Translations under genes and position numbers: made by a program
Source of the DNA: Desulfobacteraceae bacterium
GTDB taxonomy: Bacteria > Desulfobacterota > Desulfobacteria > Desulfobacterales > UBA11574
DNA: 35,437 nucleotides
Assembly (NCBI GenBank): GCA_030613575.1
Contig: JAUWLP010000005.1
Span: forward strand, 1-35,437
Direction: 5' to 3'
In this document: in pieces, positions 1 to 30,523 of the stretch
Layout: each line of letters opens with the position of its first letter
Numbering within the stretch: the stretch's first letter is position 1
The notes under the pieces: model-generated
The model's input: only the letters and a program-made list of their open reading frames with translations
Database searches by the model: none
Told to the model about the DNA's origin: nothing

Positions 1-117
1 TTCCATTCTGATGGCATAAATAGGTTTTCATTAAAAAACCTGTATTTTCAAGAAGTTGTAGAATTTCCGAGACGTTTAGTTAACCCTTTTGGACTTTCTT
101 CTCAATCACACGTTTTT

Positions 118-1299
118 ATGGATAAGCAATTTCAGTCAAAACACATCATTCATTTGGACATGGATGCTTTTTATCCCTCGGTTGAGATGCTGGACAATCC
201 TGCCTTAAAAGGGAAACCGGTCATAGTGGGAGGTGGCAAGGAAAGAGGTGTGGTGTCATCTGCCTCATATGAAGCTCGAAAATTCGGTATTCATTCTGCC
301 CAACCTATTGCGAGAGCAAAACGCCTTTGTCCTGATGGGATTTTTTTACCTGTCAGAATGTCAAGATACCAAGAAGTCTCTAAGCAGGTATTTGAAATAT
401 TTCATCGTTTCACACCATTAGTTGAGCCCATATCTATCGATGAAGCATTTCTTGATGTAACAGGTTCCATACGTCTTTTTGGTCAGCCCGAGAAAATCGC
501 TAAAAAGATTAAGCAAATAATTTTAGCAGAGACAGACCTGACAATTTCAGCCGGTGTTGCTCCTTCAAAATTTGTGGCAAAGATTGCCTCTGACATTGAC
601 AAACCTGACGGTTTAACTGTTATACATCCCGATGGTGTTAGAGATTTCTTAGATCCGCTCCCCGTCAAAAAAATGTGGGGGGTTGGAAAAGTGACACAGC
701 TACTCTTAAGTCGCCTCGATATCCACACTTTTAGGGATTTGAGACAAACTCCAGTAAAGGTTTTGGAGAAAAAATTTGGAAAACATGGTGCCAAAATACA
801 TCTGTTGGCCATGGGAATAGATGAACGAGATGTGATACCAGAACATGATGTGAAGTCTATCGGTCATGAACAGACTTTTTTACAAGACATCATATCTTTG
901 GATGTGGCTCAAAAAGAGCTCCTTGCTTTGGGTAATAAAGTGGCTCGACGGATGCGGCATAAGGGCCTAAAAGGAAAAACCATCACATTGAAGGTCAAAT
1001 ATTTTGATTTTGTTCAGATCACCCGGTCAACAACTCTGCCTAAATCCATAAATGACAGTTTGGAGATATATTCAGTTGCTTGTCGTCTTTTAGAAAGGAC
1101 TGAGGTAACTAAAAAACCAATCAGGCTTTTAGGGATTTCTTTGTCTCAACTCAGTTTTTTGGGCATCGGAACCCAGCTCTCTCTTTTTGATCAAGACCAG
1201 TCACCTCAAAAACGTCAGAGATTAAATACTGTTTTAGATTCATTATACGAAAAATTTGGTGACAAAAGTGTTCTTCCTGGCACGCTTTTAAACGATTAA
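118..1299 (+). CDS. dinB: DNA polymerase IV (Y-family translesion polymerase)
   Basis: Error-prone translesion DNA polymerase of the Y family, 393 aa, slightly longer than E. coli DinB. The palm begins with DMDAFYPSVE (residues 14-23) and the second metal-binding motif is SIDEAF, so D14, D108 and E109 are the expected catalytic acids. The steric-gate position is Tyr19, as in archaeal Dpo4, where E. coli has Phe. A C-terminal QLSLF (about 353-357) is a textbook sliding-clamp binding motif. The ATG at 118 has only a weak ribosome binding site, but the conserved N-terminus starts right after it. No LexA box is evident in the 117 bases upstream. The gene converges on a truncated HU gene. Identity is firm; SOS control is not shown. 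Confidence 0.96.
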   Translation: MDKQFQSKHIIHLDMDAFYPSVEMLDNPALKGKPVIVGGGKERGVVSSASYEARKFGIHSAQPIARAKRLCPDGIFLPVRMSRYQEVSKQVFEIFHRFTPLVEPISIDEAFLDVTGSIRLFGQPEKIAKKIKQIILAETDLTISAGVAPSKFVAKIASDIDKPDGLTVIHPDGVRDFLDPLPVKKMWGVGKVTQLLLSRLDIHTFRDLRQTPVKVLEKKFGKHGAKIHLLAMGIDERDVIPEHDVKSIGHEQTFLQDIISLDVAQKELLALGNKVARRMRHKGLKGKTITLKVKYFDFVQITRSTTLPKSINDSLEIYSVACRLLERTEVTKKPIRLLGISLSQLSFLGIGTQLSLFDQDQSPQKRQRLNTVLDSLYEKFGDKSVLPGTLLND

Positions 1300-1514: not shown

Positions 1515-1700
1515 GAATTCTGCATAGTTAGAAGTTATGGGTTTAGGCGAATGAAATCAGGACGAAGATTATTTGAAAATTGTCAAAATTAGGATTTACT
1601 TGACCTGAGACCAGAAAAATATGATATCTCTATATCAATTGTTGTTGTGAATGGTGTAGATACTGGCAAGTATCTGTAATTTGAGAAATTAATTCTCTGA

Positions 1701-1790
1701 CGTTAACGACTGCCTTCACCCGCGCCACCACCGAGCCTGCCGCGAAGCGCCGCCAAGCTTTCCGGCTTCGGGTGGAAGGCTTGGTTAGTC
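1701..1790 (-). other. attC-like recombination site closing the cassette with the 123-aa membrane protein gene
   Basis: On the minus strand the region starts GACTAAC and ends GTTAACG. Between them AAGCCTTCCACCCG is mirrored by CGGGTGAAGGC, with a further inner arm. This is the imperfect-palindrome layout (outer AAC and GTT boxes, inner paired arms) of integron attC sites. The stop codon TAA of the preceding gene lies inside the left box, a common feature of gene cassettes. The R' box departs from the GTTRRRY consensus, so this is attC-like and not proven. Confidence 0.55.
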
Positions 1791-2156
1791 GCCATAGTCT
1801 CTCAACCAAATTGAAACCATCCGATAAGTTACAAACATGACGGCCACTGTTGTGCCAAGAAAAGCTACACCTATGAACCAATACCAACCGCGATTAATAT
1901 TACGCTTTAGTTTGCTGAAAAACTTCAATGACTTATTCGCTTTTTCAGGAACTGAACGAAAAGTCACAATAAAGGAGTAAGTGCTAATAGCCCAGAGTAG
2001 TCCGACAATATTCGGGATAAGAAATCGATCACTTTCATGAGACTCAGAGATGAACATGATCACGACCATTGATGCCAAGCTAATTAATCCAACAGCAATA
2101 GATGGCAGGCGAAGGATTTGAATGGCTTGAGCAATTCCCTGAAGTTTATCGATCAT
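1785..2156 (-). CDS. Small integral membrane protein, cassette-type hypothetical
   Basis: A 123-aa protein I cannot assign to a family. It has about three hydrophobic stretches (roughly residues 17-36, 45-65 and 92-113), separated by a basic loop with many Lys and Arg (about 68-90), so it is probably an inner-membrane protein. Its ATG lies about 12 bases after the GTTAGCC end of one attC-like site, and its stop codon sits inside the next. That compact arrangement is what an integron gene cassette looks like. There is no clear Shine-Dalgarno in the very short leader. Function unknown. Confidence 0.65.
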   Translation of the reverse strand: MIDKLQGIAQAIQILRLPSIAVGLISLASMVVIMFISESHESDRFLIPNIVGLLWAISTYSFIVTFRSVPEKANKSLKFFSKLKRNINRGWYWFIGVAFLGTTVAVMFVTYRMVSIWLRDYGD

Positions 2157-2165
2157 TTTTATTAA

Positions 2166-2231
2166 GGCTAACGGCGCGCCTGACCAGCTGGCGCGGTTTT
2201 TAGCCCGTCTGCGTCCAGGCGCAGGTTAGCT
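2166..2231 (-). other. attC-like recombination site between the two cassette genes
   Basis: Minus strand: AGCTAAC at one end and GTTAGCC at the other are complementary over six bases. Inside them GCGCCTG pairs with CAGGCGC. The 66-bp element lies directly between the stop of the 88-aa gene and the start of the 123-aa gene, as expected for integron cassettes. No intI gene is present in the window. Confidence 0.6.
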
Positions 2232-2234
2232 AAA

Positions 2235-2501
2235 TCATTTCTTTGATCCGATGACGAGATTGTCAACGACTTTAAGAATAGAGGTGTCCCAAGGATATTC
2301 TTCCTTTTGCGCCACCCACTTTTTTGCCTTGGATTGAAATCCAATGTCGCAAGCAACTGGTATAAAGAATTCTGAAATAATTCCCTCCATAAGTTGCCAT
2401 TCGTAATCCAAATCATTCTTTATAGTTGTGTTACCGCGTAAGAACCAAAGAGTGTACTCACGATCAATAGGGGGGATGATGTTAGGCAACATGTGATGCA
2501 T
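2235..2501 (-). CDS. Cassette-type hypothetical protein, possibly 5'-frameshifted
   Basis: An 88-aa soluble protein rich in aromatic residues (motifs REYTLWFLRG, YEWQLMEG, KKWVAQKEEYPWD). I do not recognise the family. An attC-like site follows the stop almost at once. Upstream, in another frame, a 45-codon open frame (2482-2619, GTG start) encodes a plausible protein segment that overlaps the ATG used here. The two may be halves of one gene of about 125 aa split by a frameshift. If so, the annotated start is artificial. There is no strong ribosome binding site at the ATG, which favours the split-gene reading. Confidence 0.5.
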   Translation of the reverse strand: MHHMLPNIIPPIDREYTLWFLRGNTTIKNDLDYEWQLMEGIISEFFIPVACDIGFQSKAKKWVAQKEEYPWDTSILKVVDNLVIGSKK

Positions 2502-2621
2502 AACCTTGAAAAGTTTCAGCCTTGTAGTAAGATTGATGATATTTTTCAGCGTTTATCAATATGTTTTTAACCTTATCATCATAGTTTATTACTTTGACGG
2601 AGTAAGCTGTACGCCTCACCG

Positions 2622-2921
2622 TTAGGGCGCATCGATGGCCAAAAGTCCGTGAGCCTTGGCCGCCATGACGATTCGGCTTATTTCAAAATTCCACCGGTGG
2701 CCAGGATAAATCTCTTCTTCTTTTTCACCGTGTCCTGAAATCGACACCAGTCGGGCGCTGATGGAGACCGAATAATCCACGATGCCGAACACCAGGGTGA
2801 TCAACCGGTCACTGGCTTTGGCGATCTGAGACACCTGTTCCAGGCCTTCGGCACTTTCGATGATGGCCTCGATATTGATACGGCTCGAGAATTCCTTTGC
2901 CGCTTCAATCCCGTCAAGCAT
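2622..2921 (-). pseudogene. Fragment of an HpcH/HpaI-type (malyl-CoA/citrate lyase-like) aldolase
   Basis: The 99-aa frame carries hallmarks of the C-terminal half of CitE/malyl-CoA lyase proteins: IIESAEGLEQVSQIAKAS, LVFGIVDYS, then GHRWNFEISRIVMAAKAHG and AIDAP. Family members are roughly 300 aa and continue after IDAPYG; here a stop replaces the tyrosine codon. The frame is open upstream of the ATG to about 2975, adding the homologous-looking GGIHFVCR, but the N-terminal half is absent because serA ends there. It is truncated at both ends and presumably inactive. The right-hand junction abuts the cassette-like region, suggesting the rearrangement broke it. Confidence 0.7.
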
Positions 2922-2964
2922 TCGGCAGACAAAATGGATGCCTCCGGGAATGGAAAGTGTCGAT

Positions 2965-4596
2965 TCAGCTTGGTTTCATGATGTTGTCTCCTGTGGCCCC
3001 TGATCCCTGATAGGTTTCAAATTCTAGTCGGGTCACCGATATAATCAGCGGCAGGTCAAGCAACTTTTCAACAACAGTATCGGAAATACGGATATTGGTT
3101 TTGAGGAAAATGATGTTCATCTTTCCGGTTTCTTCCCGTCCCAGATGCATCTGGTCGATGCTGATTTTTTTACTCCCCAGAAGTGACGAGAAACTTCCGA
3201 TGGCCCCCGGCTTGTCAAGGGTGTATATCAGCGCCAGATGACCTTCCGGGATAAGTTCGAGCCGAAAATTGTTAATCTTTACGATCCTCATTTTATCCTT
3301 TCCGAATAGGGTTCCGGAAACGGTATTCGTCACTTTCGGCGTCGAAACACGGACGGTAATCAGGTTGATATATTCTTCGGCCGTATCACTGATGATCTCT
3401 TTGATTGTTATCCCTCTGTCCTTTGCCAGGACCTGGGCGTTGACGAAATTGACATCATCCTTCACCACGGGCGCCAGCAGGCCTCTAAACACCGCTGTTG
3501 TAACCGGTGACAGGTCGAGTTCCTTGAAATCTCCGGCATATTCAATGGAAACTTTTTCAATGGGTCCCCGGATAAGCTGGGTCTGAAGGCTGCCGATATG
3601 ATCCGCCAGGGTCAGTAACGGTCTCAGTTTTGTAAGAAGATCACCGGTGACCGATGGAACGTTAACGGCGTTCATAATCGTGCCGTAATTGAGATATTCA
3701 ATGATCTGACCGGCCACATCCACAGCCACTTTTGTCTGGGCTTCCTGGGTGGAAGCACCGAGATGGGGGGTACAAATCAGGCGTTCATGTTCAATCAAGG
3801 GGCATATACCGGGAGGTTCTTTTTCAAAGACATCCAGTGCAGCGCCGGCAACTTTCCCTGACTCCAGGGCAGCATAAAGGGCATCCTCGTCGACAATCCC
3901 CCCCCGGGCACAGTTGATGATCATGACCCCGTCTTTCATCTGCTCGAAGACGTCCTTGTTCAGCAGTCCGATGGTTTCTTTGAACTTGGGGACATGCACC
4001 GTAATGTAATCGGACCTGCGGTACAATTCTTCCAGGGAAACACTTTCAAAGCCGGTCTTTTCGATCTGCTCAAGCGTAACATAAGGATCGTAAACAATCA
4101 CCTTCATCTTCAGGCCACGGGCAAGATCGGCGACAATGGATCCGATTTTTCCATATCCGATAACGCCGAGGATTTTATTGTATATTTCTCTTCCCTGCAG
4201 TTTTTTCTTGTCCCAGCGTCCGGCCTTTAACGATGCGGTTCCTTCAGGCACATTGCGCGAAAGCGCCATCAACATGCCGATGGCGTGCTCGGCGGTTGTA
4301 ATCACGTTGCCGCCCGGTGTATTCATCACAATGATCCCGCGCTTGGTCGCCGCCGGAATATCCACGTTGTCAAGACCGATTCCCGCACGGCCCACAACCT
4401 TAAGGCGCGTTGCAGCGCCCAAAAGATCCTCTGTCACCTTTGTGGTGCTCCGGATAACAAGGCCGTCATACTCCTGGATAATGCTTTTGAGCGCCTCGGG
4501 AGCCAGTCCGGTCTTCACATCCACTTCAATCCCTTCTTCTTCCTGAAACATCCGGATACCGGCTTCTCCCAGATTGTCGCTGACCAGAACTTTCAT
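2965..4596 (-). CDS. serA: D-3-phosphoglycerate dehydrogenase
   Basis: Oxidises 3-phosphoglycerate to 3-phosphohydroxypyruvate with NAD+, the first step of serine synthesis; cytoplasmic. The 543 aa fit the long, ACT-containing form. The substrate domain is followed by a Rossmann fold with GYGKIG at 147-152. The catalytic set is Arg231 (NCARGG), Glu260 (DVFEKEPP) and His278 (TPHLGAS). An intervening domain (about 320-450) and a C-terminal ACT domain (about 455-530) follow, the latter usually mediating serine feedback. It lies 58 bases after the PurD-like gene and is probably cotranscribed with it. The tail runs about 15 residues past the usual ACT end. Confidence 0.97.
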   Translation of the reverse strand: MKVLVSDNLGEAGIRMFQEEEGIEVDVKTGLAPEALKSIIQEYDGLVIRSTTKVTEDLLGAATRLKVVGRAGIGLDNVDIPAATKRGIIVMNTPGGNVITTAEHAIGMLMALSRNVPEGTASLKAGRWDKKKLQGREIYNKILGVIGYGKIGSIVADLARGLKMKVIVYDPYVTLEQIEKTGFESVSLEELYRRSDYITVHVPKFKETIGLLNKDVFEQMKDGVMIINCARGGIVDEDALYAALESGKVAGAALDVFEKEPPGICPLIEHERLICTPHLGASTQEAQTKVAVDVAGQIIEYLNYGTIMNAVNVPSVTGDLLTKLRPLLTLADHIGSLQTQLIRGPIEKVSIEYAGDFKELDLSPVTTAVFRGLLAPVVKDDVNFVNAQVLAKDRGITIKEIISDTAEEYINLITVRVSTPKVTNTVSGTLFGKDKMRIVKINNFRLELIPEGHLALIYTLDKPGAIGSFSSLLGSKKISIDQMHLGREETGKMNIIFLKTNIRISDTVVEKLLDLPLIISVTRLEFETYQGSGATGDNIMKPS

Positions 4597-4654
4597 GATA
4601 TTTTCTCCTCATTGGGGTTGATGTTCAAATATGAGCCATTCAGGGCCTTTTGAT

Positions 4655-6259
4655 TTACATGTCCAGTTGCCAATCCGGGAAAAGTTCATCCCATTCTTCA
4701 TAAATCCTGCCGGGGTCCCGGCGGATATCAAGACGATTGGCTTTTTCGAAAGCAGCCTTTGCTTTGTTAAATTCAGCCTCGGTAATGTTGCCCTGTTCGA
4801 ACAGTATCTCCGCCGGCTCAAAAGTTTCCTCTGCTTCACGGGGAATCACCCTGACAAGGCCATGGTCAAAGGCCTGCAAGAGTGAGGCCCTGAGTGCTTC
4901 CGCGACTTCTCCTCTTTTCTGTCCGGGTTTGACCGTGGCATTTTTACTGAGGTAGCACACCCGAGAGCCGTCTGATATCAGTCGCTGATTTTCTTCATCC
5001 CAGCTCATGTTGGATGGGACAATGAGAATACCTCGTTTTCCAAGGCTCTTGAAATTGATGAGCACGGGCTCATACTTTGTATACGAATTCGGGTATCCCT
5101 TCTGCCCGTGTGGCCCACCGGGTCCGGTAACCAGCGCGAGGCAGATAGAGATTTGATCATTGCGCACATCCGGCTCAATGGAATCGAGTTTGCTATCGAT
5201 TGCGGCAACGATCAGTTCTCCCAGATTTTTAAGCCGGCGTGCCACAACCTGCATCTCGGGTTCACCTGCCCGAATATTCATTTCGTAGACCAGTATACCC
5301 ACCGGTTTTCCGGTCTCAGGATCGATGGATACGCGACAGCCAGGGTAGAGAATACATGGCCGGAGAATAGCCCTCTTCTTCATCTCCTCCACAAAGGGCT
5401 GGATGACTTTGTCACCCACCAACTTGATAAGGTCAGGTGTTTCGGCGGGGTGCATGCCGATGGCTCCCATTCCCCCTGTAACCGGGTTGGTCTGGCTCGG
5501 GGGCCCTTCATAGCGAAGGGGATAATCCATGGCGGTGGGAAGAATGCAAAAGTTACCCTTTTTGTCGATCAAGGCGGTAAAGCTGATCTCGATTTCGGAT
5601 TTCCAGGCCTCGATCAACAGCGGCCATTTATTGTCTCCGTGCCGTGTTTTATAGTTTTCGCTGTAATCCTTGAGCAGTATATTTCGCACATCGAGGATGT
5701 CTTCAATCCGGAAAACAGGTCGGGAACCTTTGCCGTCGGCGCTGTAGGGATATTTGAAAACCGCGCCACCATGGTTGCGTATGAAATTCGTAACAATGCT
5801 CTTGATTTGGTGCAGGTTTTTCGCATCCGCCACCTTGAAGGGTGCAACAGGCACACCGGCTCTTTTCATCCAGGTCTTTGCCTTGACTTTATCTCCCTCG
5901 ATGAAAGCCGCTTCCCTGGTCAAGCCAATGACCCGGTCACCATACCCGGCATCGATGAGTTCATTTACGATACCGTCATAAATGAGATCTTCAGGCATAA
6001 TAACAACACAGTCAATTTCCTTGCTCTTAAACGCCGTTATAATAACAGACTTGTAATCTTCAAGTGACTTTCCCGGGACGGGGAATATTTTCATGGCCCA
6101 CTTTTTCTTTCCCCTGACGGCATCCATTACCGGACCCATACCTGTCATGCCTTTGATTATGGCGCCCATAAACTGGTCTTGTTCAACTGTCGAAACAGTA
6201 TACGCACACATACAGGTTCTACCATCTGGTCCAACAAAGCCGATCGTCTTTTTTGCCAT
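4655..6259 (-). CDS. PurD-like ATP-grasp ligase (phosphoribosylamine-glycine ligase family)
   Basis: An ATP-grasp enzyme of 534 aa, about 100 longer than typical PurD. PurD-like segments include the IDCVVIMPE/VIGLTREAAFIEGDK region (82-123), NPVTGGMGAIG (258-268) and the metal/ATP-binding YEMNIRAGEPEMQVV (325-339). The N-terminus is atypical: instead of the GGREHAL motif it has GPDGRTCMCAYT, and the C-terminus carries an extra charged tail after about residue 470. It may therefore be a genuine but divergent GAR synthetase or an ATP-grasp ligase with a changed acceptor. It lies upstream of serA, which makes glycine's precursor, so a link to serine/glycine or purine metabolism is reasonable. 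Fold assignment is firm; substrate is not. Confidence 0.7.
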   Translation of the reverse strand: MAKKTIGFVGPDGRTCMCAYTVSTVEQDQFMGAIIKGMTGMGPVMDAVRGKKKWAMKIFPVPGKSLEDYKSVIITAFKSKEIDCVVIMPEDLIYDGIVNELIDAGYGDRVIGLTREAAFIEGDKVKAKTWMKRAGVPVAPFKVADAKNLHQIKSIVTNFIRNHGGAVFKYPYSADGKGSRPVFRIEDILDVRNILLKDYSENYKTRHGDNKWPLLIEAWKSEIEISFTALIDKKGNFCILPTAMDYPLRYEGPPSQTNPVTGGMGAIGMHPAETPDLIKLVGDKVIQPFVEEMKKRAILRPCILYPGCRVSIDPETGKPVGILVYEMNIRAGEPEMQVVARRLKNLGELIVAAIDSKLDSIEPDVRNDQISICLALVTGPGGPHGQKGYPNSYTKYEPVLINFKSLGKRGILIVPSNMSWDEENQRLISDGSRVCYLSKNATVKPGQKRGEVAEALRASLLQAFDHGLVRVIPREAEETFEPAEILFEQGNITEAEFNKAKAAFEKANRLDIRRDPGRIYEEWDELFPDWQLDM

Positions 6260-6295
6260 AACATTCCTTCCTTTTTTTGCACAAGTTTAGAGTAT

Positions 6296-6326
6296 TACAT
6301 ACTCACAAGCTTAGTACTTTTGTCAA
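6296..6326 (-). promoter_or_regulatory. Candidate promoter of the PurD-like/serA operon
   Basis: Minus strand: TTGACA at 6321-6326, then TATGTA (6296-6301) after 19 bases, or AGTATG after 17. It is 37 bases upstream of the ATG. The -35 is perfect and the -10 is weak, so moderate support only. Confidence 0.4.
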
Positions 6327-6838
6327 TACTTGATATGGCATGATGTATCGTATTTTTTTAAGCATTCTTAATTATCAGCTACACCCTACGGGCTCGCTCG
6401 CTTCCCCAACATCTCCCTCTCGGAAAGGTACCAGAAATCACGGGCCGCCGAACATATTATGAAATGTATTGTACGGCAGCATTTTTCTGAAAAGATAACC
6501 TATTGCTCAACTGAACCAGATCCCTTTGCCCTTTTCCCCAAAATCGAATTAATTTGACATACATTAGAAAATATTAAATAATACATATATTCAATCTCTT
6601 TCGAGTATTTAGCATCATTCCTGAAGCGATTTTGATTCATTGGCACCTCTTCAATCCGTGCTGAAATTGATAGGCCATAGCGTATTGATTTTAACCTGCT
6701 AAAAACACAATAAAACAAACCGAGACATAACCCAAGCAAGGGATAAAACCTTTATTAAACCACTAAAGGTTCATCCACTGTTTTATAATATACGAGGGTG
6801 ATGGGTCTTTGTTTTTACAGCAAATGGGGGATTTCCTA
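6327..6838. other. Intergenic stretch with no convincing gene
   Basis: AT-rich spacer between the divergent PurD-like and cyclopropane synthase units. The only candidate is a minus-strand frame starting at 6640 (46 aa, MNQNRFRNDAKYSKEIEYMY..., preceded by GAGGTG) and ending at 6500. It has no recognisable family and atypical composition. I see no RNA gene or strong repeat. Confidence 0.4.
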
Positions 6839-20208: not shown

Positions 20209-20238
20209 TATACTATCCCTTTATTGGGTTTTAACATT

Positions 20239-20387
20239 GATGGCTTCGTAAAAAGTCCAACTTCTGCGTTGCGCTGCATTCCTCGTCACTGCGACGTACT
20301 ATATGTACGTCTCATTCCTCGGAATTTGCGCGCCTTGAATTTGGAGCTTTTTACTTTACCATCAAAATCTGACTTTTTACGAAACCG
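20239..20387. mobile_element. MITE family copy B
   Basis: The 149-bp element starts GATGGCTTCGTAAAAAGTC and ends GACTTTTTACGAAACCG. The 8 bases TTAACATT flank it on both sides (20231-20238 and 20388-20395), a clear target duplication. The core has a palindrome near ACGTACTATATGTACGT. No coding content. The core is nearly identical to copy C. Confidence 0.8.
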
Positions 20388-20474
20388 TTAACATTTACAA
20401 TACTAATTTTATTAAAATTGTCCAAATCTATAAAACTGATTCAATATTTTTTCAAGAAACAAAAAGCCATTTAG

Positions 20475-21686: not shown

Positions 21687-22270
21687 ATGCCAAGGTTAGC
21701 AAGATTAGATGCCCCTGGAGTGTTGCACCATGTCATGGGTCGGGGTATTGAGAGAAGAAAGATTTTTTTAAGTAATACGGATCGCAATGATTTTATAGGT
21801 CGTCTGTCAACCCTGGGTCAGGATGGAGCGAAGGTATTGATCAGGGCCGCAGGCCGGAATTGGTCGGCGGAGGATTAATACGGAGCATGGGCGGCTGGTC
21901 GGCGGTTCTCGCTATCCGAAGGCGCGGTGAAAGGGAGGTTGCTGACCAGCAGATACTCGGTGACGGAGATTTTGTCAAGCAGGTCATATCGGGCCTTGAT
22001 GATCTTTTTAAAAAGAGCTTAAGGCTGTCCGGACAGCGAATAGATATGAAAGCGCTTGCCGAAAAAGTGTCTGGAAGGTACAATGTTTCTATGGGTTAAC
22101 TTCGGTCAGGAGGTCGAAGAAGGGCAGTCGCTTAAGCCAGGCATGCGATGTCGTGGATCGGTGTCAGGGAACTCGGTTATTCCGGGGCTATTGTTGCGAG
22201 GTATCTTGGTGTTACGAACTCTTGCGTGACGCAAATGATATCAGCAGGGGAAAAACAGGGTTTTCGTTAA
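21687..22270 (+). pseudogene. Degenerate REP-associated tyrosine transposase (RAYT), copy 2
   Basis: It starts like copy 1 (MPRLARLDAPGVLHHVMGRG, RNDFIGRLSTLGQDGA), then loses the HUH core: an internal deletion joins it, after a frameshift, to the C-terminal part (VGGGLIRSMGGWSAVLA, FVKQVISGLDDLFKKSLRLSGQRID, VSGRYNVSMG). After a stop and another shift the DnaA-like HTH end is still legible (MSWIGVRELGYSGAIVARYLGVTNSCV) up to about 22270. Non-functional; directly upstream of hypA. Confidence 0.85.
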
Positions 22271-22297
22271 GCACTAATTATGCTAAATGAGTTACTT

Positions 22298-22675
22298 ATG
22301 CATGAAATGGGCATAGCTATGGAGATCGTTGAGATTGCGACTGCTTCAATTCCTGCCGGCATGAAAGGCCAGAGAGTTGAAAGAGTCAATCTGAAAATCG
22401 GCAAACTGTCGGCGGTGGTACCCGAAAATCTTCGTTTCTGTTTTGAGATTGTAGCTAAAGACACCCCCCTTTGTAATGCAGAACTCAATATTGAAGAGGT
22501 TCCGGTTGTAGTAAGGTGCCGGGATTGCCATTCGCAAGAAACCATCAATGAACCTGTCTTTGCCTGCCGGAAATGCAGCAGCGGGTCCGTGGAAGTAATT
22601 TCAGGCCGGGAGCTGGATATCAATTCTATCGAAATTACTGATGAGGGTGAACCAGATGCTGATAAAACTATATAA
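22298..22675 (+). CDS. hypA: Hydrogenase/urease nickel incorporation protein HypA
   Basis: Nickel-delivery metallochaperone for [NiFe] hydrogenase, 125 aa. I chose the start at 22298 because the product must begin MHE: the N-terminal amine and His2 bind nickel. An ATG 18 bases upstream would mask that site. The zinc site is CRDC...CRKC (two CxxC about 14 residues apart), conserved in the family. It works with HypB, whose gene overlaps its end, in the cytoplasm. The minus-strand hydrogenase operon converges on it. Confidence 0.95.
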   Translation: MHEMGIAMEIVEIATASIPAGMKGQRVERVNLKIGKLSAVVPENLRFCFEIVAKDTPLCNAELNIEEVPVVVRCRDCHSQETINEPVFACRKCSSGSVEVISGRELDINSIEITDEGEPDADKTI

Positions 22676-23435
22676 AATTCAACAATATAACCATCACAAA
22701 ACGTTTCAAAAACCTTTTCATTCTCATACCAGAAATGATGCTGGCAGGGGAAACATAAAAGCCGGCACCAGGAAAATAAAGGTAGTCCGCAGAGTTCTGG
22801 ATGTTAATGACGCAATTGCGCAGCAGAATCGTGAACTATTTGCTAAAAAAGGTGTTTTTGTTATTAACGTGATGAGTTCTCCTGGTTCCGGCAAAACCGC
22901 AATACTCGAAAAGGCCCTCTCTTATCTTATGCCTAAGATCAAATGCGCTGTGATTGTGGGCGATATCTGTACCTCAAATGACGCCGACCGGCTGGCTGTT
23001 TCAGGCGCGCCGGTTGTGCAGGTCAATACAGATGCGTTCGGAGGCGACTGTCACCTGGCGGCCCATGTCATTAAAACAGCGGTCAACAACTTTGAGTTGG
23101 AAGACATCGATCTTTTAATCGTGGAGAACCTTGGCAACCTGGTATGTCCGGCCGAATTTGACATCGGTGAGGATTTGCGGGTGGTCGTTTTAAGTGTGAC
23201 GGAAGGTGAAGATAAGCCGGTCAAGTACCCTTTGATGTTTAGGGTATGCGACGCAACCTTATTAAATAAAATTGATTTACTACCGCATCTCGACTATGAC
23301 CGCCAGGCGGCTGTGAAGTATATCCGGCAGGTACATTCCGACATGCCGATTTTTGAGATTTCGGCCAAAACCGAAGCAGGTTTCGGTCCCTGGATCGACT
23401 GGCTCAAACAGAAGATAAGTCGTAAGTTAAACTAG
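22656..23435 (+). CDS. hypB: Hydrogenase nickel incorporation GTPase HypB
   Basis: GTPase that inserts nickel into the hydrogenase large subunit together with HypA; 259 aa. Walker A is SSPGSGKT (74-81) and NKID (204-207) gives guanine specificity. The G-domain metal site is Cys132-His133 (GGDCH) and Cys164 (NLVCPAEFD). The N-terminal CxxCGC motif of E. coli is absent, but a His cluster (NHH, HSH at 12-24) could store nickel. The start at 22656 has GAGGG eight bases upstream and overlaps hypA by 20 bases; an ATG at 22641 has no such site. Confidence 0.95.
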   Translation: MLIKLYKIQQYNHHKTFQKPFHSHTRNDAGRGNIKAGTRKIKVVRRVLDVNDAIAQQNRELFAKKGVFVINVMSSPGSGKTAILEKALSYLMPKIKCAVIVGDICTSNDADRLAVSGAPVVQVNTDAFGGDCHLAAHVIKTAVNNFELEDIDLLIVENLGNLVCPAEFDIGEDLRVVVLSVTEGEDKPVKYPLMFRVCDATLLNKIDLLPHLDYDRQAAVKYIRQVHSDMPIFEISAKTEAGFGPWIDWLKQKISRKLN

Positions 23436-23472
23436 TTTCCATCCAGTCCCGCCATGGGAGACCCCGATTCCA

Positions 23473-24483
23473 TTAACAGATTCGCGGCAGCTGCTCGCCC
23501 GTGAGCATATCAACGATTCTGGATCCTCCTATGCTGGTTTGCATGATCACTTTACCGGGATTATCAGCGATCGCCTCCCCAATGATACAGGCGTCTTGGC
23601 CAAATTCATCTGCTCTTATCGCTGCAAGGACTTTCTCGGCATAATCAGGAGCGACAAAGGCAATCAATTTGCCTTCATTGGCAACATAGAAAGGATCAAA
23701 TCCTAGCAGTTCACAGATTCCGGCGATCTCTTTTTTTAGCGGGACCTTTTCTTCGTAAATTTTAATTCCGACGCCGGATTTGCCGGCAATTTCATTCAAT
23801 GCCGCACCGACACCTCCGCGAGTCGGGTCGCGCAGCACATGGATATCCTTGTGGGCGGCAAGCATTTTTGTCACCATATGATTTAGCGGCGCGGTATCAC
23901 TTATAACCGGTGAGTCAAAAATCATACCTTCTCTTTGGGTTAATACAGTCATGCCGTGGTCAGCAATACTCCCGCTGATGATAACTTTGTCTCCGGGGCG
24001 GGCCCTATGGCTGGAAATGTCGACCTGCCGGGGTATTAGCCCAATCCCAGACGTATTAACAAAAATCTTGTCGACAGCACCTTTGGGAACAACTTTAGTA
24101 TCTCCGGTCACAACTTTTACATTAGCCTTTTCAGCAGCCAAAGCCATGTCTTGAAGGATTTTTCCCAGGTCCGTCAAAGAGAGACCCTCTTCAATAATTA
24201 ATCCTGCGCTAAGATAAAGCGGAGTAGCCCCGCACATGGCGAGGTCATTGACAGTTCCGTTTACAGCGAGTTTTCCAATACTTCCGCCCGGGAAAAAAAT
24301 GGGATCGACTACATAGGTGTCTGTGGAAAAGGCCATTCGCTGTTTGGCAATATCGAAAATTGCGCCGTCGTGCAGTACTGCAAGTATTGGGTTGTCAAAT
24401 ATGGGGAGGACCATATCAGTAATCAACTGGTGTGACATTTTCCCGCCGCTACCGTGATCCAAAAGAATTTTGTCGATCTTCAT
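23473..24483 (-). CDS. hypE: Hydrogenase maturation protein HypE (carbamoyl dehydratase)
   Basis: Turns the carbamoyl group received from HypF into a thiocyanate on its C-terminal cysteine, which supplies the CN ligands of the Ni-Fe centre. The 336-aa product begins MKIDKILLDHGSGGK, with AAGGACAA before the ATG at 24483; a longer frame to 24600 is overlap with hypD. The essential C-terminal PRIC motif ending in Cys336 is present. The PurM-like ATP-binding fold shows DPTRGGVGAALNEIA. It ends convergently with hypB, about 37 bases apart. Confidence 0.96.
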   Translation of the reverse strand: MKIDKILLDHGSGGKMSHQLITDMVLPIFDNPILAVLHDGAIFDIAKQRMAFSTDTYVVDPIFFPGGSIGKLAVNGTVNDLAMCGATPLYLSAGLIIEEGLSLTDLGKILQDMALAAEKANVKVVTGDTKVVPKGAVDKIFVNTSGIGLIPRQVDISSHRARPGDKVIISGSIADHGMTVLTQREGMIFDSPVISDTAPLNHMVTKMLAAHKDIHVLRDPTRGGVGAALNEIAGKSGVGIKIYEEKVPLKKEIAGICELLGFDPFYVANEGKLIAFVAPDYAEKVLAAIRADEFGQDACIIGEAIADNPGKVIMQTSIGGSRIVDMLTGEQLPRIC

Positions 24484-24494
24484 TGAATTGTCCT

Positions 24495-25586
24495 TTATAT
24501 GCTGTAGTAGCGATAATAAGCTGCACAGGTCCCTTCGCTTGAAACCATGCAAGGGCCCACCGGGTTCATGGGTGTGCAGGCCTTTTGATAAAGCGGGCAC
24601 TCAGTCGGATTTTTAATACCTGTCAGGATTTCACCGCAGACACAGCCCTTGGGTTCCTTTGATTCAGAAACAATGATTGCAAATTCCTTTTGGGCATCAA
24701 AGGCGGCAAATTCCTTTCTGATCTTAAGACCACTTTCTGGAATTGTTCCGATACCGCGCCACTTAACATCAACGGTTTCAAAGACATCTTGCATGATTTT
24801 TTGGGCCTTTACGTTGCCTTCAAATGTAACGGCCCGCCGGTAGCTGTTGGTTAGTTGCGGAGCTCCGGTTTCAATCTGTTCAACCAGGATTAAGATTGCC
24901 TGCAATATATCTAGCGGTTCAAATCCCGCAATAGCACAGGGACTTTGATATTGTTTAAAAAATGGTTGGTAAGCCTTTGTGCCGATAACCACGGAAACAT
25001 GGCCGGGAAGTAAAAAACCGTCTATATTCACTTCTCTGGTGGCCATGAGGGCAACAAGGGCCGGAGGGACCAGTTTGTGAGTGGAAATGACAAAGTAGTT
25101 ACCAAGATTCATCTCTTTGGCAGCAAGTATCGATGCAGCTATGGTCGGTGCGGTGGTTTCAAAGCCGACCCCCAAAAAGACGACGTTTTTTTTTGGGTTT
25201 TTCTTTGCAATCTCAAGAGCGTCAAAAGTCGAATAAACGATGCGGATATCGCGGCCCCCGGCACGTTCTGTCTGAAGGGATGAATCGGTTCCCGGGACTT
25301 TGATAAGATCGCCAAAGGTTGTAATGATCACATCTTCTACTCTGGATAGCGCTATAAAAGCATCGATTTCATTTTGAGCGGTAACGCATACAGGGCAGCC
25401 GGGACCTGAAAGCAGCGAAATCGTTTCCGGTAACAGCTGTCTGATTCCGCTTTTGAAAATCGACATAGTGTGCGTGCCGCAGACTTCCATTAAGCGAATT
25501 TGTTTTAGGCTAGCCGCTTTTATCCGCTTAATGATTTTTTGAGCAATCTGCGGATCCCTGTATTCTTCTAAATGTTTGATAGCCAT
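24495..25586 (-). CDS. hypD: Hydrogenase maturation protein HypD
   Basis: Fe-S scaffold on which the Fe(CN)2CO unit is assembled with HypC and HypE; 363 aa, usual length. Conserved motifs: MEVCGTHTMS (33-42), LSGPGCPVCVT (59-69), GFETTAPT, and the C-terminal 4Fe-4S region (GCVCGEILTG..., C-terminal Cys residues in CPLYQKACTP and CMVSSEGTCAAYYRY). Its stop is 11 bases before hypE, and hypF ends 53 bases upstream, so one operon. Confidence 0.96.
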   Translation of the reverse strand: MAIKHLEEYRDPQIAQKIIKRIKAASLKQIRLMEVCGTHTMSIFKSGIRQLLPETISLLSGPGCPVCVTAQNEIDAFIALSRVEDVIITTFGDLIKVPGTDSSLQTERAGGRDIRIVYSTFDALEIAKKNPKKNVVFLGVGFETTAPTIAASILAAKEMNLGNYFVISTHKLVPPALVALMATREVNIDGFLLPGHVSVVIGTKAYQPFFKQYQSPCAIAGFEPLDILQAILILVEQIETGAPQLTNSYRRAVTFEGNVKAQKIMQDVFETVDVKWRGIGTIPESGLKIRKEFAAFDAQKEFAIIVSESKEPKGCVCGEILTGIKNPTECPLYQKACTPMNPVGPCMVSSEGTCAAYYRYYSI

Positions 25587-25639
25587 TGTTTAGTCCATTA
25601 CTCAAGTTAAATAGGACGCCCCAGTACGATCTTCTGGAC

Positions 25640-27919
25640 TTACGTATCGACAACTGCAGCAGCGACCATAGCCTGACCAAGACTGATACCCCCGTCATTG
25701 GGCGGGACCAGAGTGTGGGAATAGACATTAAACTTTGCTTCTTCTAGCGCTTTTATCAGGCCGGTTAACAGTATTGAATTCTGAAACACTCCGCCGCTTA
25801 AAACCACCTTGTTTAATCCGCTCTCTTCTCGAATAACTTCACACAGCTCGGCAAACAGCCGGATCAGGGTCTGATGAAACTTGCGGCTGATCACAGATGG
25901 GTGAATTCCTTGCAGCATGTCTTTAACCACACCTTGGATAATCGGCCTGGTTAGAATTTTGTGACTGTCGGTAGTTTCCCATTCGTAGTCATAGATGCCG
26001 GCTACTTGATCACTTGCTAACATCTCCAGTTCCATGGCGGCCTGGCCTTCGAACAAGACATGATTTCTTATCCCGGCAATCGACGCAATGCCGTCAAAAA
26101 GGCGCCCGAGACTGGAGGTAAAAGGCGCATTGATCTTTTTGTTCACCATATCCACCATGATTTTCACCTTGTTGGTGCCGATTGCTTTCAACAGGGGAAG
26201 ATCAAGATCCCAAAATTTTTCGCCAAAGGCATCGTAAAGGTAACTGACAGCCATGCGCCAGGGCTCTTTTATGGCTGCAGCACTCCCGGGCATTGGTAGA
26301 TAGGCGAAATGAGCGGTCCGGGAAAACTTTTCTATATCGGTAATCAAGATTTCGCCTCCCCATATGGCGCCGTCGGTTCCATATCCGGCTCCATCAAAAG
26401 AGAGGCCGATGACGGGGCCGTCGATCCGGTTTTCCGCCATGGCGCTGACAATATGAGCATGGTGGTGTTGTACTTGGACCTTTTTAATATCTTTTTGTTC
26501 TTGAGCATATCGAGAGCTCAAATAGTCCGGGTGAAGGTCAAAAGCAATAATTTCCGGTTGGATATCCAGTATCAGCTTCATGTGCCGGATCGTCAACTCA
26601 AAAAAATCATAAGTTGCCGGATTTTCAAGATCGCCGATATGCTGGCTTACAAAGGCTTTATTAGCTTTGGTCAGACATATCGTATTTTTTAATTCAGCGC
26701 CACAGGCCAAAATGGGTGGAACCTTATTTTTTAAAAAGACAGGAACCGGAACATAGCCCCTTGAACGCCGGATAACCCGGGTGGCACCAGCCGTTTTGCG
26801 GACGATCGAGTCATCACTGCGTAGATAGATATCACGGTTGTGAATCAGAAAATAATCGGCGATATCAGACAATCTTTCAAAGGCATCGTCATTGTCAATG
26901 ACTATCGGCTCTTCACGCAGGTTGCCGCTGGTCATCACCAGGGCGGTAAAGCCGCGACTTAAAAGAAGATAGTGGAGAGGTGTATACGGCAGCATGGCGC
27001 CAAAATAACAGTTGCGGGGCGCTACCGCCTTTGCAATCGAATTTGGTTCTTTTTTTTTCAGAAGTACGATCGGGCGCTGGGATGAAGTAAGCAGTTTTTC
27101 CTCTTTCTGCTCAACCTGGGCATATTTGCGAATACGTTCGACATCATAAGACATAATAGCCAGCGGTTTTGCTTCCCGATGTTTTCTTCTTCTGAGCCGG
27201 GTAACAGCATCATCGTTTTCAGCGTCCACTGCCAGATGAAAGCCTCCCAGGCCTTTAACGGCTATGATACATCCCTGCTTTAAAAGAGTTGCCGTCTTTT
27301 CAATAGGGTTGGGGGTTGTGATTTTTTGGCGGGCATTATCAAAAAGCCTTACATGCGGACCGCAATCTTCGCAGGCGTTGGGTTGGGCATGAAATCTTCT
27401 GTTTGCAGGGTCGTCATACTCAGCCTGGCAAAGGGGGCACATTTTGAAGTGCTTCATAGAGGTTTGGGGCCGGTCATAGGGGATATCAGCGATGATAGTA
27501 TAGCGGGGTCCGCAGTTAGTACAGTTGATGAAAGGGTACTGAAAGCGGCGGTCATTGAGATCAAATAATTCATGGCGACAGTCATCGCAGACAGATACGT
27601 CCGGTGATATAAGGGTCGTCATCACCGACTGCTCTCTGCTGTCTACAATCGTAAAGTCCTGGTAATTGTTAACCAGTTCATCAAAAAAATCAATCTCAGT
27701 GATATGAGCCAGCGGCGGTTTTTTTTCGGAAATATCGCGGCAGAAGAATTCAATATGCTGCTTGTTCCCCTCTATGTGTATGAATACGCCCGAGGATGTA
27801 TTGGCGACTTTACCTTTAAGATTATACCGGTTGGCAAGCTTGTAAACAAAGGGCCGAAAGCCGACCCCTTGAACGATCCCGTTTATCTCGACTCTTCTGG
27901 CAACGCATTCTTCCGTCAA
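25640..27919 (-). CDS. hypF: Carbamoyltransferase HypF
   Basis: Makes carbamoyl-AMP from carbamoyl phosphate and ATP and passes the carbamoyl group to HypE; 759 aa. Domains in order: acylphosphatase-like (about 1-95, with GIVQGVGFRPFVY), two CxxC zinc fingers (CDDCRHEL...CTNCGPRY, then CPLCQAEY...CEDCGPH; about 105-185), a YrdC-like domain (about 200-385) and a Kae1-like domain with HHHAH (near 478). Its ATG overlaps the hypC stop in an ATGA junction, so translation is coupled. Confidence 0.97.
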   Translation of the reverse strand: MTEECVARRVEINGIVQGVGFRPFVYKLANRYNLKGKVANTSSGVFIHIEGNKQHIEFFCRDISEKKPPLAHITEIDFFDELVNNYQDFTIVDSREQSVMTTLISPDVSVCDDCRHELFDLNDRRFQYPFINCTNCGPRYTIIADIPYDRPQTSMKHFKMCPLCQAEYDDPANRRFHAQPNACEDCGPHVRLFDNARQKITTPNPIEKTATLLKQGCIIAVKGLGGFHLAVDAENDDAVTRLRRRKHREAKPLAIMSYDVERIRKYAQVEQKEEKLLTSSQRPIVLLKKKEPNSIAKAVAPRNCYFGAMLPYTPLHYLLLSRGFTALVMTSGNLREEPIVIDNDDAFERLSDIADYFLIHNRDIYLRSDDSIVRKTAGATRVIRRSRGYVPVPVFLKNKVPPILACGAELKNTICLTKANKAFVSQHIGDLENPATYDFFELTIRHMKLILDIQPEIIAFDLHPDYLSSRYAQEQKDIKKVQVQHHHAHIVSAMAENRIDGPVIGLSFDGAGYGTDGAIWGGEILITDIEKFSRTAHFAYLPMPGSAAAIKEPWRMAVSYLYDAFGEKFWDLDLPLLKAIGTNKVKIMVDMVNKKINAPFTSSLGRLFDGIASIAGIRNHVLFEGQAAMELEMLASDQVAGIYDYEWETTDSHKILTRPIIQGVVKDMLQGIHPSVISRKFHQTLIRLFAELCEVIREESGLNKVVLSGGVFQNSILLTGLIKALEEAKFNVYSHTLVPPNDGGISLGQAMVAAAVVDT

Positions 27920-28167
27920 TCGCTATCAATCCCCTCCTTTTGATCGCCGAATATCACCGCAGCTGCTTCCCTGAGGAGCTTTAAAGATTCCAGGGCATGT
28001 TCTTCGTTTATTTTGTTGATGGCAAAGCCGGCGTGTACAATGACATAATCTCCAACCTTCGGATTTTCCAGCAGGAGAAGGCTGGCCTCTCTTTGAACAC
28101 CGTCGACATCGATGGTCGCCATATTGTCTTTGATTTTTATGATTTTTGATGGAATTGCAAGACACAT
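27916..28167 (-). CDS. hypC: Hydrogenase maturation chaperone HypC
   Basis: Small chaperone (83 aa) that binds HypD and the large-subunit precursor and delivers the iron-cyanide unit. It begins MCLAIPSKI, the family signature whose Cys2 is essential; I therefore set the start at 28167, not 28176. The GDYVIVHAGFAI segment is also typical. It overlaps hypF by 4 bases. Confidence 0.96.
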   Translation of the reverse strand: MCLAIPSKIIKIKDNMATIDVDGVQREASLLLLENPKVGDYVIVHAGFAINKINEEHALESLKLLREAAAVIFGDQKEGIDSD

Positions 28168-28211
28168 TCGTAACAACCCTTCTATTTGTAGAATTGCGAA
28201 GCGTTTAATAA

Positions 28212-28772
28212 TTACTTGTTTTTTGCTCGAACATTGATCCCAATGGTTTTTAGCTCCGCAACCACCATGTCAACCAGACGGCTTAAGTTCTGCGCGACTT
28301 CGGTCGATAGGGTCAGACCTGTTGAAAGCTGTTTGGGTTCAATGCCGAACAAGGTAATATTCCGGGGCAATTTATCGGTAATGGCGGCGATTCCCAGAAC
28401 ATCGGCCAGGCCGATTTGATGGGGGGAGGTTCTATCTCTGAAATAAGCAGGTGGATCATCGATCCTGACGATGGTTCCCGGATTTTTGCCGGTTTTAACG
28501 GCATCGATAATCACAATATGGCTGCGCTCTTCAAAGTAGGGTAGAAGTTCGAGGCCAATTGTTCCACCGTCGATGATCTCAACGGCACCGGAACAATCAT
28601 AGCAGCGCTGAAGTTCTTCGACAGCCTTAACACCCGCACCTTCATCTGAAAGCAAAATATTGCCTAAACCTAGAACCAGAACATTAAAAGAAAATTGCCC
28701 GGGACCTGTAGCAGAATTCTTGTTTGCAGATTCCGGGCAATTTTTTTTAGAAGAGTTTCGATGCGGGCTCAA
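28212..28772 (-). CDS. Hydrogenase maturation protease (HyaD/HybD type)
   Basis: Nickel-sensing endopeptidase that trims the large-subunit C-terminus after the Ni-Fe centre is built. Conserved: VLVLGLGNILLSDEGAGVKAVEEL (about 31-54, with the Ni-ligand Glu), DGGTIGLELLPYF, IIDAVK and SPHQIGL (with the Ni-ligand His). The only in-frame start is TTG at 28772, which overlaps the large-subunit stop (TTGA). This gives an unusual 28-residue N-terminal extension that lies over a 12-bp palindrome. The true start could be a rarer codon, such as CTG, nearer the conserved core. Confidence 0.92.
   Translation of the reverse strand: MSPHRNSSKKNCPESANKNSATGPGQFSFNVLVLGLGNILLSDEGAGVKAVEELQRCYDCSGAVEIIDGGTIGLELLPYFEERSHIVIIDAVKTGKNPGTIVRIDDPPAYFRDRTSPHQIGLADVLGIAAITDKLPRNITLFGIEPKQLSTGLTLSTEVAQNLSRLVDMVVAELKTIGINVRAKNK
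28691..28744. terminator. Hairpin between large-subunit and protease core, terminator-like
   Basis: AAAATTGCCCGG (28691-28702) and CCGGGCAATTTT (28733-28744) form a perfect 12-bp stem with a 30-base loop. On the plus strand eight T follow, and on the minus strand TTTTCTTTT follows, so it can work either way. In the operon it would reduce transcription into the protease and hyp genes or protect the 3' end of the structural message. Confidence 0.5.
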
Positions 28773-30487
28773 AATGCTCTAACTTTCACGATCTCTTTTT
28801 TATTATTAGTATCAACCATATGAATGGCACAAGCCAGACAGGGGTCAAAAGAATGTATGGTTCTAAGTATCTCCAGTGGTTTTTCAGGATCAGAGACGGG
28901 ATTGCCGATCAGGGCCGCTTCATACGGTCCCTTAGCATCTTCGCTGTTGCGAGGGGCCGCATTCCAGGTTGAGGGCACCACGCACTGGTAATTTTTAATT
29001 TTACCGTCCTGGATGACCACCCAGTGCGAAAGCATACCCCGCGGAGCTTCATGGAAACCGAAACCCATCTGTTCGCCTTTGGGAAAGACCGGTTCGTTGT
29101 ATGTAGCATAGTCACCTTTGCCGATGTTATCAATTAAAGCCTGCCACTGAGACACAAGGGAGTCATGCAGAACTGCGCATCGGATGGCCCGGCCGGCGAT
29201 CCTGCCGATGGTCGAATGCAGGGATTGAACAGAGACTCTTGTACTTGATCCCAGCATGGATAAAACCGCATTCACAGTATCCAGCATCCCGGTGGTATAC
29301 TTCACCGTTGGTTTGTGTCCGGCCGCAAACATGCACAGCACATTGGCAAGTGGGCCCACCTGGGCCGGCTTGCCCTTGAAAGTCGGTGCCTTTATCCAGG
29401 AGTACTTTCTCTTCCTGTCATATTCGGTAATATTAGGAACCGTCTCTTCCTCCCAGGGATGACGATTCCAGTCACCTTTATACCAGGAATGTTTAATGCT
29501 TTCCTTTACATTTTCTTTAAAATAATCATCCTTAAAAGAAGTTATGGCTTTAAAGGAGGAAACATCTCCATTTGCAATATAACCACCCGGCAGTTCAAAT
29601 TTAGTTCCGGCGGTATCCAGGGGCATGTCCGGAACGCATAGATAGTTGGTTACTCCGGCTCCGTAAGTTGTCCAATCGGCGTAAATGGCCCCGACGGCAG
29701 CAACATCTATCATATAAACGTTTTTAATAAAATCGCCGATTTCATCGATCAGAGTTTTCACATAATAGAGGCGTTCCATGTTCATGGCCGATTGGCTGTC
29801 AGGGTTAATGGGGTTGGCAACCCCGCCCACGGCCAGGTTTTGAATGTGAGGTGTTTTGCTGCCGAGAATAGCGACCACTTTGTTGATTCTCTGCTGATAA
29901 TCCAATGCCTGGAGATAGTGAGTGGCGGCCAGTAGATTAACTTCCGGCGGCAGTTTCATGGCTTTATGTCCCCAGTAGCCGCTGGCAAAAATCCCAAGCT
30001 GACCTGAATTGACAAAGGTCTTGAGTCTATCCTGAGCGGCTTTCATTTCATGCCGGCTGTTTTTTGGCCAGGTGGACAGCTTTTCAGCCAGGCTTGCAGC
30101 CGCCTTGGGATCGGCTTTCAGGGCTGATACAATATCCACCCAGTCCAGCGCACAAAGATGATAAAAATGAACGATGTGATCATGTATTCCGTGGGCTCCC
30201 ATAATCAGGTTGCGGATATATTGAGCATTTAAGGGAGCTTCCAAATTTAAAGCGTTCTCGACCGCCCGGACCGAGGTAATAGCATGGACGGTCGTTCAGA
30301 CCCCGCAAATCCGCTGGGTAAAAATCCAGGCCTCTCTGGGGTCACGGCCCTGAAGGATGACTTCAATGCCGCGCCACATCTGCCCGGATGACCAGGCATT
30401 AACCACCTTGCCGTTATCGACTTCACATTCAATTTTAAGATGACCTTCGATTCGGGTAATGGGGTCGATGACAATTTTTTTAGACAT
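28769..30487 (-). CDS. [NiFe] hydrogenase large subunit, with in-frame TGA (putative selenocysteine) in the N-terminal CxxC
   Basis: Catalytic subunit of a Hyb-type, group 1 hydrogenase, 572 codons. The start at 30487 follows AAGGAG. The N-terminal ligand motif should read RICGVCTTVHA; the codon at 30296-30298 is TGA, giving Cys61-Gly-Val-U64, then [16 protein letters not shown] without interruption. The C-terminal motif is DPCLACAIH (548-556) with both cysteines (550, 553), and maturation would cut after His556, removing [16 protein letters not shown]. Everything else is intact. I therefore read UGA as selenocysteine at a bridging ligand position. Known NiFeSe enzymes have it in the C-terminal motif. 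A nonsense mutation or base-call error is the alternative. Automatic callers would split this gene at 30296 and miss the N-terminus. Confidence 0.93.
30259..30298 (-). promoter_or_regulatory. Candidate bacterial SECIS hairpin directly after the TGA
   Basis: Counting U of UGA as 1, CGACCGUCC (5-13) pairs with GGGCGGUCG (32-40): nine consecutive pairs, one of them G-U. The loop is 18 bases and contains GGUC at 27-30. Position and size fit the roughly 40-base bacterial SECIS window. The loop is larger than the compact E. coli fdhF one, and GGUC is not apical, so the fit is partial. A 5-bp competing stem (6-10 with 26-30) exists. Confidence 0.4.
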
Positions 30488-30523
30488 TTAATTTCTCCTT
30501 ATATTGCAAATAAGTTAATTTTA

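Follow-up and report, generated by a model that had tools for sequence, protein, structure and literature searches.

A probable two-site CALIN, decayed at one end and fused to a truncated HpcH-type gene, in a contig of the Desulfobacterales

The window analysed in this study is a stretch of 35,437 bases that makes up the entire contig C85 of a 2.4-Mb assembly (198 contigs, 82% complete). Its placement in the Desulfobacterales comes from the relatives Eth-SRB2 (G001, same genus) and bin239 (G010, same family). The feature of interest lies 1.7 kb from the left end of the contig. Read on the minus strand from the HpcH/HpaI-type gene downwards, it consists of a remnant of that gene, an ORF of 88 aa, a palindrome, a second ORF of 123 aa, a second palindrome and a repeat, which we call D; a gene for a Y-family DNA polymerase lies between D and the contig end (Table 1). 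The preliminary description had pointed to two short ORFs on the same strand, each followed by a palindrome with AAC and GTT boxes, and to an HpcH-type gene cut at the edge of the array. All of this is borne out on the sequence, and the cut falls at 2622/2623. A search of window positions 1701-2700 against the window's own assembly returned only the self-match. The searched genomes and the public loci cited below overlap in part, L124 being G001 C61, L125 being G122 C6, L122 being G010 and L126 being G002 C108.

Table 1. Features of the array and its surroundings, with the related block found in other genomes
Feature	Position	Strand	Details or basis
Y-family DNA polymerase gene	118-1299	+	ORF list and family scan
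Repeat D	1560-1690	+	beside attC2, 10 bases away
attC2	1790-1701	-	90 nt; R'' GACTAAC (1790-1784), degenerate R' GTTAACG (1707-1701)
Cassette B, intact 123-aa gene	2156-1785	-	membrane-protein-like, hydrophobic by eye; no family above cut-off
attC1	2231-2166	-	66 nt; R'' AGCTAAC (2231-2225), R' GTTAGCC (2172-2166); crossover G^TT between 2172 and 2171
Cassette A remnant, two pieces of a 245-aa gene	2235..2624	-	holds the 88-aa ORF (2501-2235); comparison with G220 C475
HpcH/HpaI-type gene remnant	2622..2949	-	PF03328, E 8.4e-9; comparison with G012 and G023
Block U (relatives, outside the window)	L122 3885-3990; L121 99-195; L126 3898-3988; L128 524-616		conserved, near-palindromic; ends at the cassette crossover

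The two palindromes were assessed with a simple box-and-arm score, which is not a calibrated attC covariance model, and the chance level was taken from 1000 dinucleotide shuffles of positions 1501-2700. The palindrome after the first ORF, attC1, scored 22.1, a value equalled in none of the 1000 shuffles, while attC2, about 380 bases away, scored 17.5, and a site at least as good occurred in 15 of the 1000. A third minus-strand site at 2431-2351, within the first ORF, scores 18.4, and because this ORF-internal site outscores attC2, the score cannot carry attC2. The arms L'' and L' of attC1 are complementary, and its outer and inner arms pair in the minus-strand fold. In single-stranded folding, attC-type stems form on the minus strand at both sites, with modest z values of -2.0 for attC1 and -1.8 for attC2. 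The plus strand is the strand that integrases use; there a pair of separate hairpins is the best fold for attC1 (z -3.1), and the z value of attC2 is -0.8. One stop codon had been placed inside a box, and that of the 123-aa gene does lie in the R'' box of attC2, an overlap that is usual in cassettes; the stop of the 88-aa ORF comes 3 nt before the attC1 box. Against the consensus boxes R'' RYYYAAC and R' GTTRRRY, as given in PMC12901181, each attC1 box agrees at 6 of 7 positions and the R' box of attC2 at 5 of 7. No match to Rfam at its own thresholds was found in the window, and our alignments of attC-like sites (A1 with 12 sites, A2 with 7) were poor in the middle. The first part of attC2 is common to L124, L122 and L123, where the remainder differs; the complete site was seen in the window only, and no second complete copy was found among the relatives. 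The observation of two attC-type sites mostly holds, attC1 being well supported and attC2 weaker.

The gene between the two sites, cassette B, starts 15 nt past the attC1 crossover, so the very short leader that had been claimed for both ORFs stands for this one. Its relatives were found in five other genomes among the 291 searched in the class and at six public loci, and their start, G^TTAGCCTTAATAA-ATG, is constant apart from single-base variants. The DNA upstream of this start varies. The window has attC1 there, and Eth-SRB1 (L125) has a different attC; L121, L122 and L126 carry block U, and in L123 it is a further sequence that agrees with U over its final few bases only. Homology between the window and other genomes, including G220, bin239 and Eth-SRB1, begins or ends at the G^TT of attC1. 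In G220, for example, cassette A and attC1 match up to window position 2170 and another gene follows, and in Eth-SRB2 an attC1-like hairpin stands downstream of another gene. Homology that starts and stops at G^TT amid varied upstream DNA is the pattern left by cassette exchange at G^TT, and this boundary is the principal evidence. Two more distant relatives of cassette B, in G181 and G295 (61% identical), adjoin one kind of gene and are followed, by reading, by an attC-like site of different sequence. The 123-aa protein also has a 29% identical relative in Vibrio campbellii, beside which a first scan and reading found no strong attC, and no relative was found on viral contigs. A weak Nramp match (E 0.0034, below the family cut-off) was set aside.

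Cassette A has fared differently. In G220 (C475) a gene for 245 aa has two distinct portions that match window positions 2624-2508 (94.0% identity) and 2508-2170 (91.7%), and by this comparison the gene in the window has lost about 305 internal bases and its first 40-43 or so bases, start included. On the alignment, then, the 88-aa ORF is the wreck of a 245-aa cassette gene and not an intact cassette gene. The short leader is not confirmed for it, and no att site was found upstream of it. Likewise, the proposal that the two genes are integron cassettes stands for the attC sites and for intact cassette B, and has to be amended for the first gene, which is a remnant. The 245-aa protein matched no family in Pfam, NCBIfam or PADLOC. 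The 88-aa stretch has two relatives on viral contigs, 57 and 63% identical, and had no match on plasmids.

The neighbouring HpcH gene is also damaged. Compared with its relatives it lacks about 270 internal bases and its 3′ end, and an early stop falls four codons past the start used by the relatives. The intact gene follows PGDH in G012 and G023 (93-96% DNA identity). In G012 it continues beyond the position of the window's cut, with the end of the G012 contig soon after, while in G023 and G016 the intact gene has other neighbours downstream and both cassette genes are absent; the same gene order without attC sites, which would have counted against the proposed array, was not seen. At 2622/2623 the sequence GCGCCCTACGGAAAC of G012 becomes GCGCCCTAACGGTGAGG in the window, the right part of which is cassette A coding sequence and reads ATATCGGTGAAGCG in G220. 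The CGG at this joint is common to both partners, and the joint lies about 40-43 bases inside the cassette A gene, away from the G^TT crossover. Since the joint is inside cassette coding sequence and CGG is common to the partners, it appears that an illegitimate event, and not an integrase, made the HpcH joint. Of the two origins proposed for the cut, integron insertion is thus not sustained, and deletion or rearrangement fits. The motif CCCTAAC-GGTGAGGCG at the HpcH edge was considered as the 5′ half of an attC and rejected, as it is cassette A coding sequence from ACGG onward.

Taken together, these comparisons indicate that the feature is very probably a CALIN with two attC sites, in which one end of an array of integron cassettes survives in decayed form. 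An integron integrase would have linked cassettes A and B at the G^TT crossover of attC1; the boundaries are observed, and the action of the enzyme is inferred from them. Later illegitimate deletions, seen against the relatives, removed the beginning and the central part of cassette A and fused the rest to the partly deleted HpcH gene. Cassette B might be mobilised in trans by the IntI of either of two other contigs, C114 or C33, provided that they share a cell with it and that its sites are recognised.

A concern about any reading of this neighbourhood is that the contig could be a chimera of two organisms, in which case the array itself would be real and its position beside HpcH an assembly artefact. 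Window positions 2623-6358 are 92.6-96.3% identical to four genomes of g7 and 80% identical to a fifth, G016, whereas positions 22251-30503 are collinear with, and 87% identical to, G002 of the window's own genus, and HpcH was found in none of the six same-genus genomes. The contrast between a g7-like left part and a later part like its own genus could reflect either horizontal transfer or a chimeric contig, and horizontal transfer accounts for the same facts. However, the HpcH joint and the deletions are internal to the g7-like end, away from its border, and cassette B is present in Eth-SRB2, which belongs to the same genus as the window's assembly. We therefore consider a chimera unlikely.

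It is less likely still that a trans-acting integrase inserted the cassettes into HpcH off target, at an attG-like site, with the cut marking the point of insertion. Off-target insertion has been reported in other bacteria (PMC12901181), the HpcH cut adjoins the array and intI genes exist in the assembly, but the joint, some 43 bases inside the cassette A gene and with its common CGG, is not a G^TT boundary, and no continuation of HpcH is seen on the far side of the array. An attG insertion at the present joint was rejected in that the joint between host and array does not coincide with a cassette crossover. An older insertion near HpcH that was trimmed later is possible. The parallel with attG insertions, as described in PMC12901181 and referred to in PMC11023631, is that cassettes lie in the host genome away from an integrase; the difference is the HpcH joint of the window, which is not at a cassette boundary. 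That the palindromes are ordinary hairpins, such as terminators, with a chance likeness to attC is highly improbable, for although each follows an ORF, the predicted folds are not extreme and an equally good chance site occurs inside an ORF, a terminator leaves unexplained the homology that starts and stops at the attC1 G^TT in several genomes, and attC1 exceeds all 1000 shuffles.

The term CALIN denotes attC sites that cluster without an integron integrase (IntegronFinder 2.0, PMC9024848), and the origins listed for CALINs in PMC8618304 include loss of intI, rearrangement and off-target insertion. As in the CALINs of these two sources, the window has two attC-type sites and cassette genes on a contig without an integrase. 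There is no difference of kind; the window array is of minimum size, with two sites if attC2 is accepted, and is visibly decaying. It would be one more eroding CALIN, a known kind, in which the route of decay, small deletions and a fusion that mimics insertion, is unusually clear, and it suggests that a gene cut beside a cluster of attC sites need not mark an integration site.

The lack of an integrase, as originally described, holds for the contig and not for the assembly. A TIGR02249 search reported no match on C85, and it found two full intI genes above the cut-off elsewhere in the assembly, on C114 (448 bits) and C33 (429 bits), which answers the suggestion to look for intI in the rest of the genome. 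Eleven further matches in the assembly are all below the cut-off, and since each of the 14 control genomes also yields such matches, the count was restricted to the two above it. The complete chromosomal integron of C114 (locus L011, 600-7874) resembles the window array in having cassettes on one strand with attC sites (3158-3073, score 29.1; 1726-1622, score 25.6) in the same assembly. In contrast to the window array, it has intI beside its cassettes, and no window cassette was seen in it. The proteins encoded on C114 include an Mrr_cat nuclease and a member of HEPN_Cthe2314, and the closest matches of the C114 flank are in G002 and G003, genus g1. The two intI contigs may not derive from the same organism as C85, as part of C85 is nearer another genus.

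The comparison of cassette B loci also brought up block U, which lies outside the window. In L121, L122 and L126 about 90-105 bases before cassette B are common, and the DNA diverges further upstream. U was matched in 7 of 24 genomes of the family. A typed consensus of 81 nt was matched in 34 of 389 genomes and 20 of 150 genera of the order; the match is at least 65 nt in 11 genomes and shorter in the rest, and some of the short ones may be chance. The layout, over roughly 50-80 nt, is a near-palindrome in most copies, then about 20 nt, then ACTKG^TTA. The consensus of the last 50 bases over 23 loci is gtAtATCATTaCAATTTacATGATAaACAGAaCTGtAtAATcACTtGTTA, and the crossover is GTT in 16 of these 23. 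Different ORFs lie downstream of U. For their study 25 of 34 U loci were used, the others being duplicates (L135, L136, L139), partial (L140, L141, L152, L155, L157) or too short after U (L126); nine matches of the 389-genome search are not among the loci taken individually. In 21 of the 25, no more than 55 nt separate U from the start of the longest ORF behind it, a count for U loci alone with no control set. An attC candidate between -15 and +70 of the ORF stop was found for 6 of 19 scorable U-linked ORFs and for 8 of 331 control ORFs (Fisher p 2.6e-5, a value that ignores kinship among loci). The 13 scorable ORFs without a candidate include those of L121 and L122, two cassette B loci with a truncated attC2.

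Both intI proteins were compared by tblastn with 20 stretches of 3.4-19.9 kb around U, which often end at contig ends, and no match of intI grade was found. Weak hits occur in two stretches, L175, which comes from the present assembly (best E 1e-8), and L171 (7e-4). In G010, where one contig carries both U and cassette B, TIGR02249 likewise gave no match above the cut-off. By eye, the DNA beside intI in G122 and G004 has the U elements TATATCAY, TTTACA or TTTACG, and ACTG^TTA, most other intI loci being unclear. A tentative explanation, which we hold to be somewhat less than an even prospect, is that U is a conserved attI-like site, scattered through genomes of the order and lacking a neighbouring integrase, which would capture single cassettes or short arrays through an integrase acting in trans. 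Under the attI-like reading, the 123-aa cassette of the window would be a client of U in other genomes.

The rival to this explanation is that U is an operator-promoter of accessory genes. This possibility is supported by the near-palindromic form of most copies, by the TATAAT that often precedes the crossover and by the 13 of 19 scorable ORFs that lack an attC. What speaks for the attI-like site instead is the attC enrichment, together with the crossover that U shares with cassette B. U also differs from attG, which is described as strongly divergent from classical att sites (PMC12901181), in being a conserved sequence. Integrase-less attI sites in this group were not met among the titles and abstract openings listed in literature searches, the original attG paper excluded, and a repeated landing-site-like sequence such as U may be new. 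If the attI-like reading is true, the CALINs here would partly be satellite landing sites and not ruins alone. If U turns out to mark attI sites that lack an integrase, these would allow a direct test of where non-integron cassettes come from and of whether such cassettes are placed where they can be expressed.

Several smaller observations concern the relatives and the rest of the contig. In G183, partial U-like motifs at L165 8200-11250 precede, by eye, a toxin-antitoxin-like gene pair and another ORF, and they adjoin a U site with two genes that bear attC candidates. Repeat D has one match in this assembly, four in G010, 11 in G012 and three in G013; in L122 and L123 part of D lies in the opposite orientation downstream of the truncated attC2. 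As an element that targets attC sites D was rejected, as the other copies examined end at differing points and none enters a cassette except those of L122 and L123. On the minus strand at 1322-1460, an ORF of about 42 codons, broken off, resembles by eye the N-terminus of an HU/IHF-type protein, and related DNA occurs in several relatives. The short repeat at window positions 1-82 recurs many times in genomes of genus g1, above all in G001, and a long imperfect inverted repeat at 20229-20393 is MITE-like and has related copies in G001 C67.
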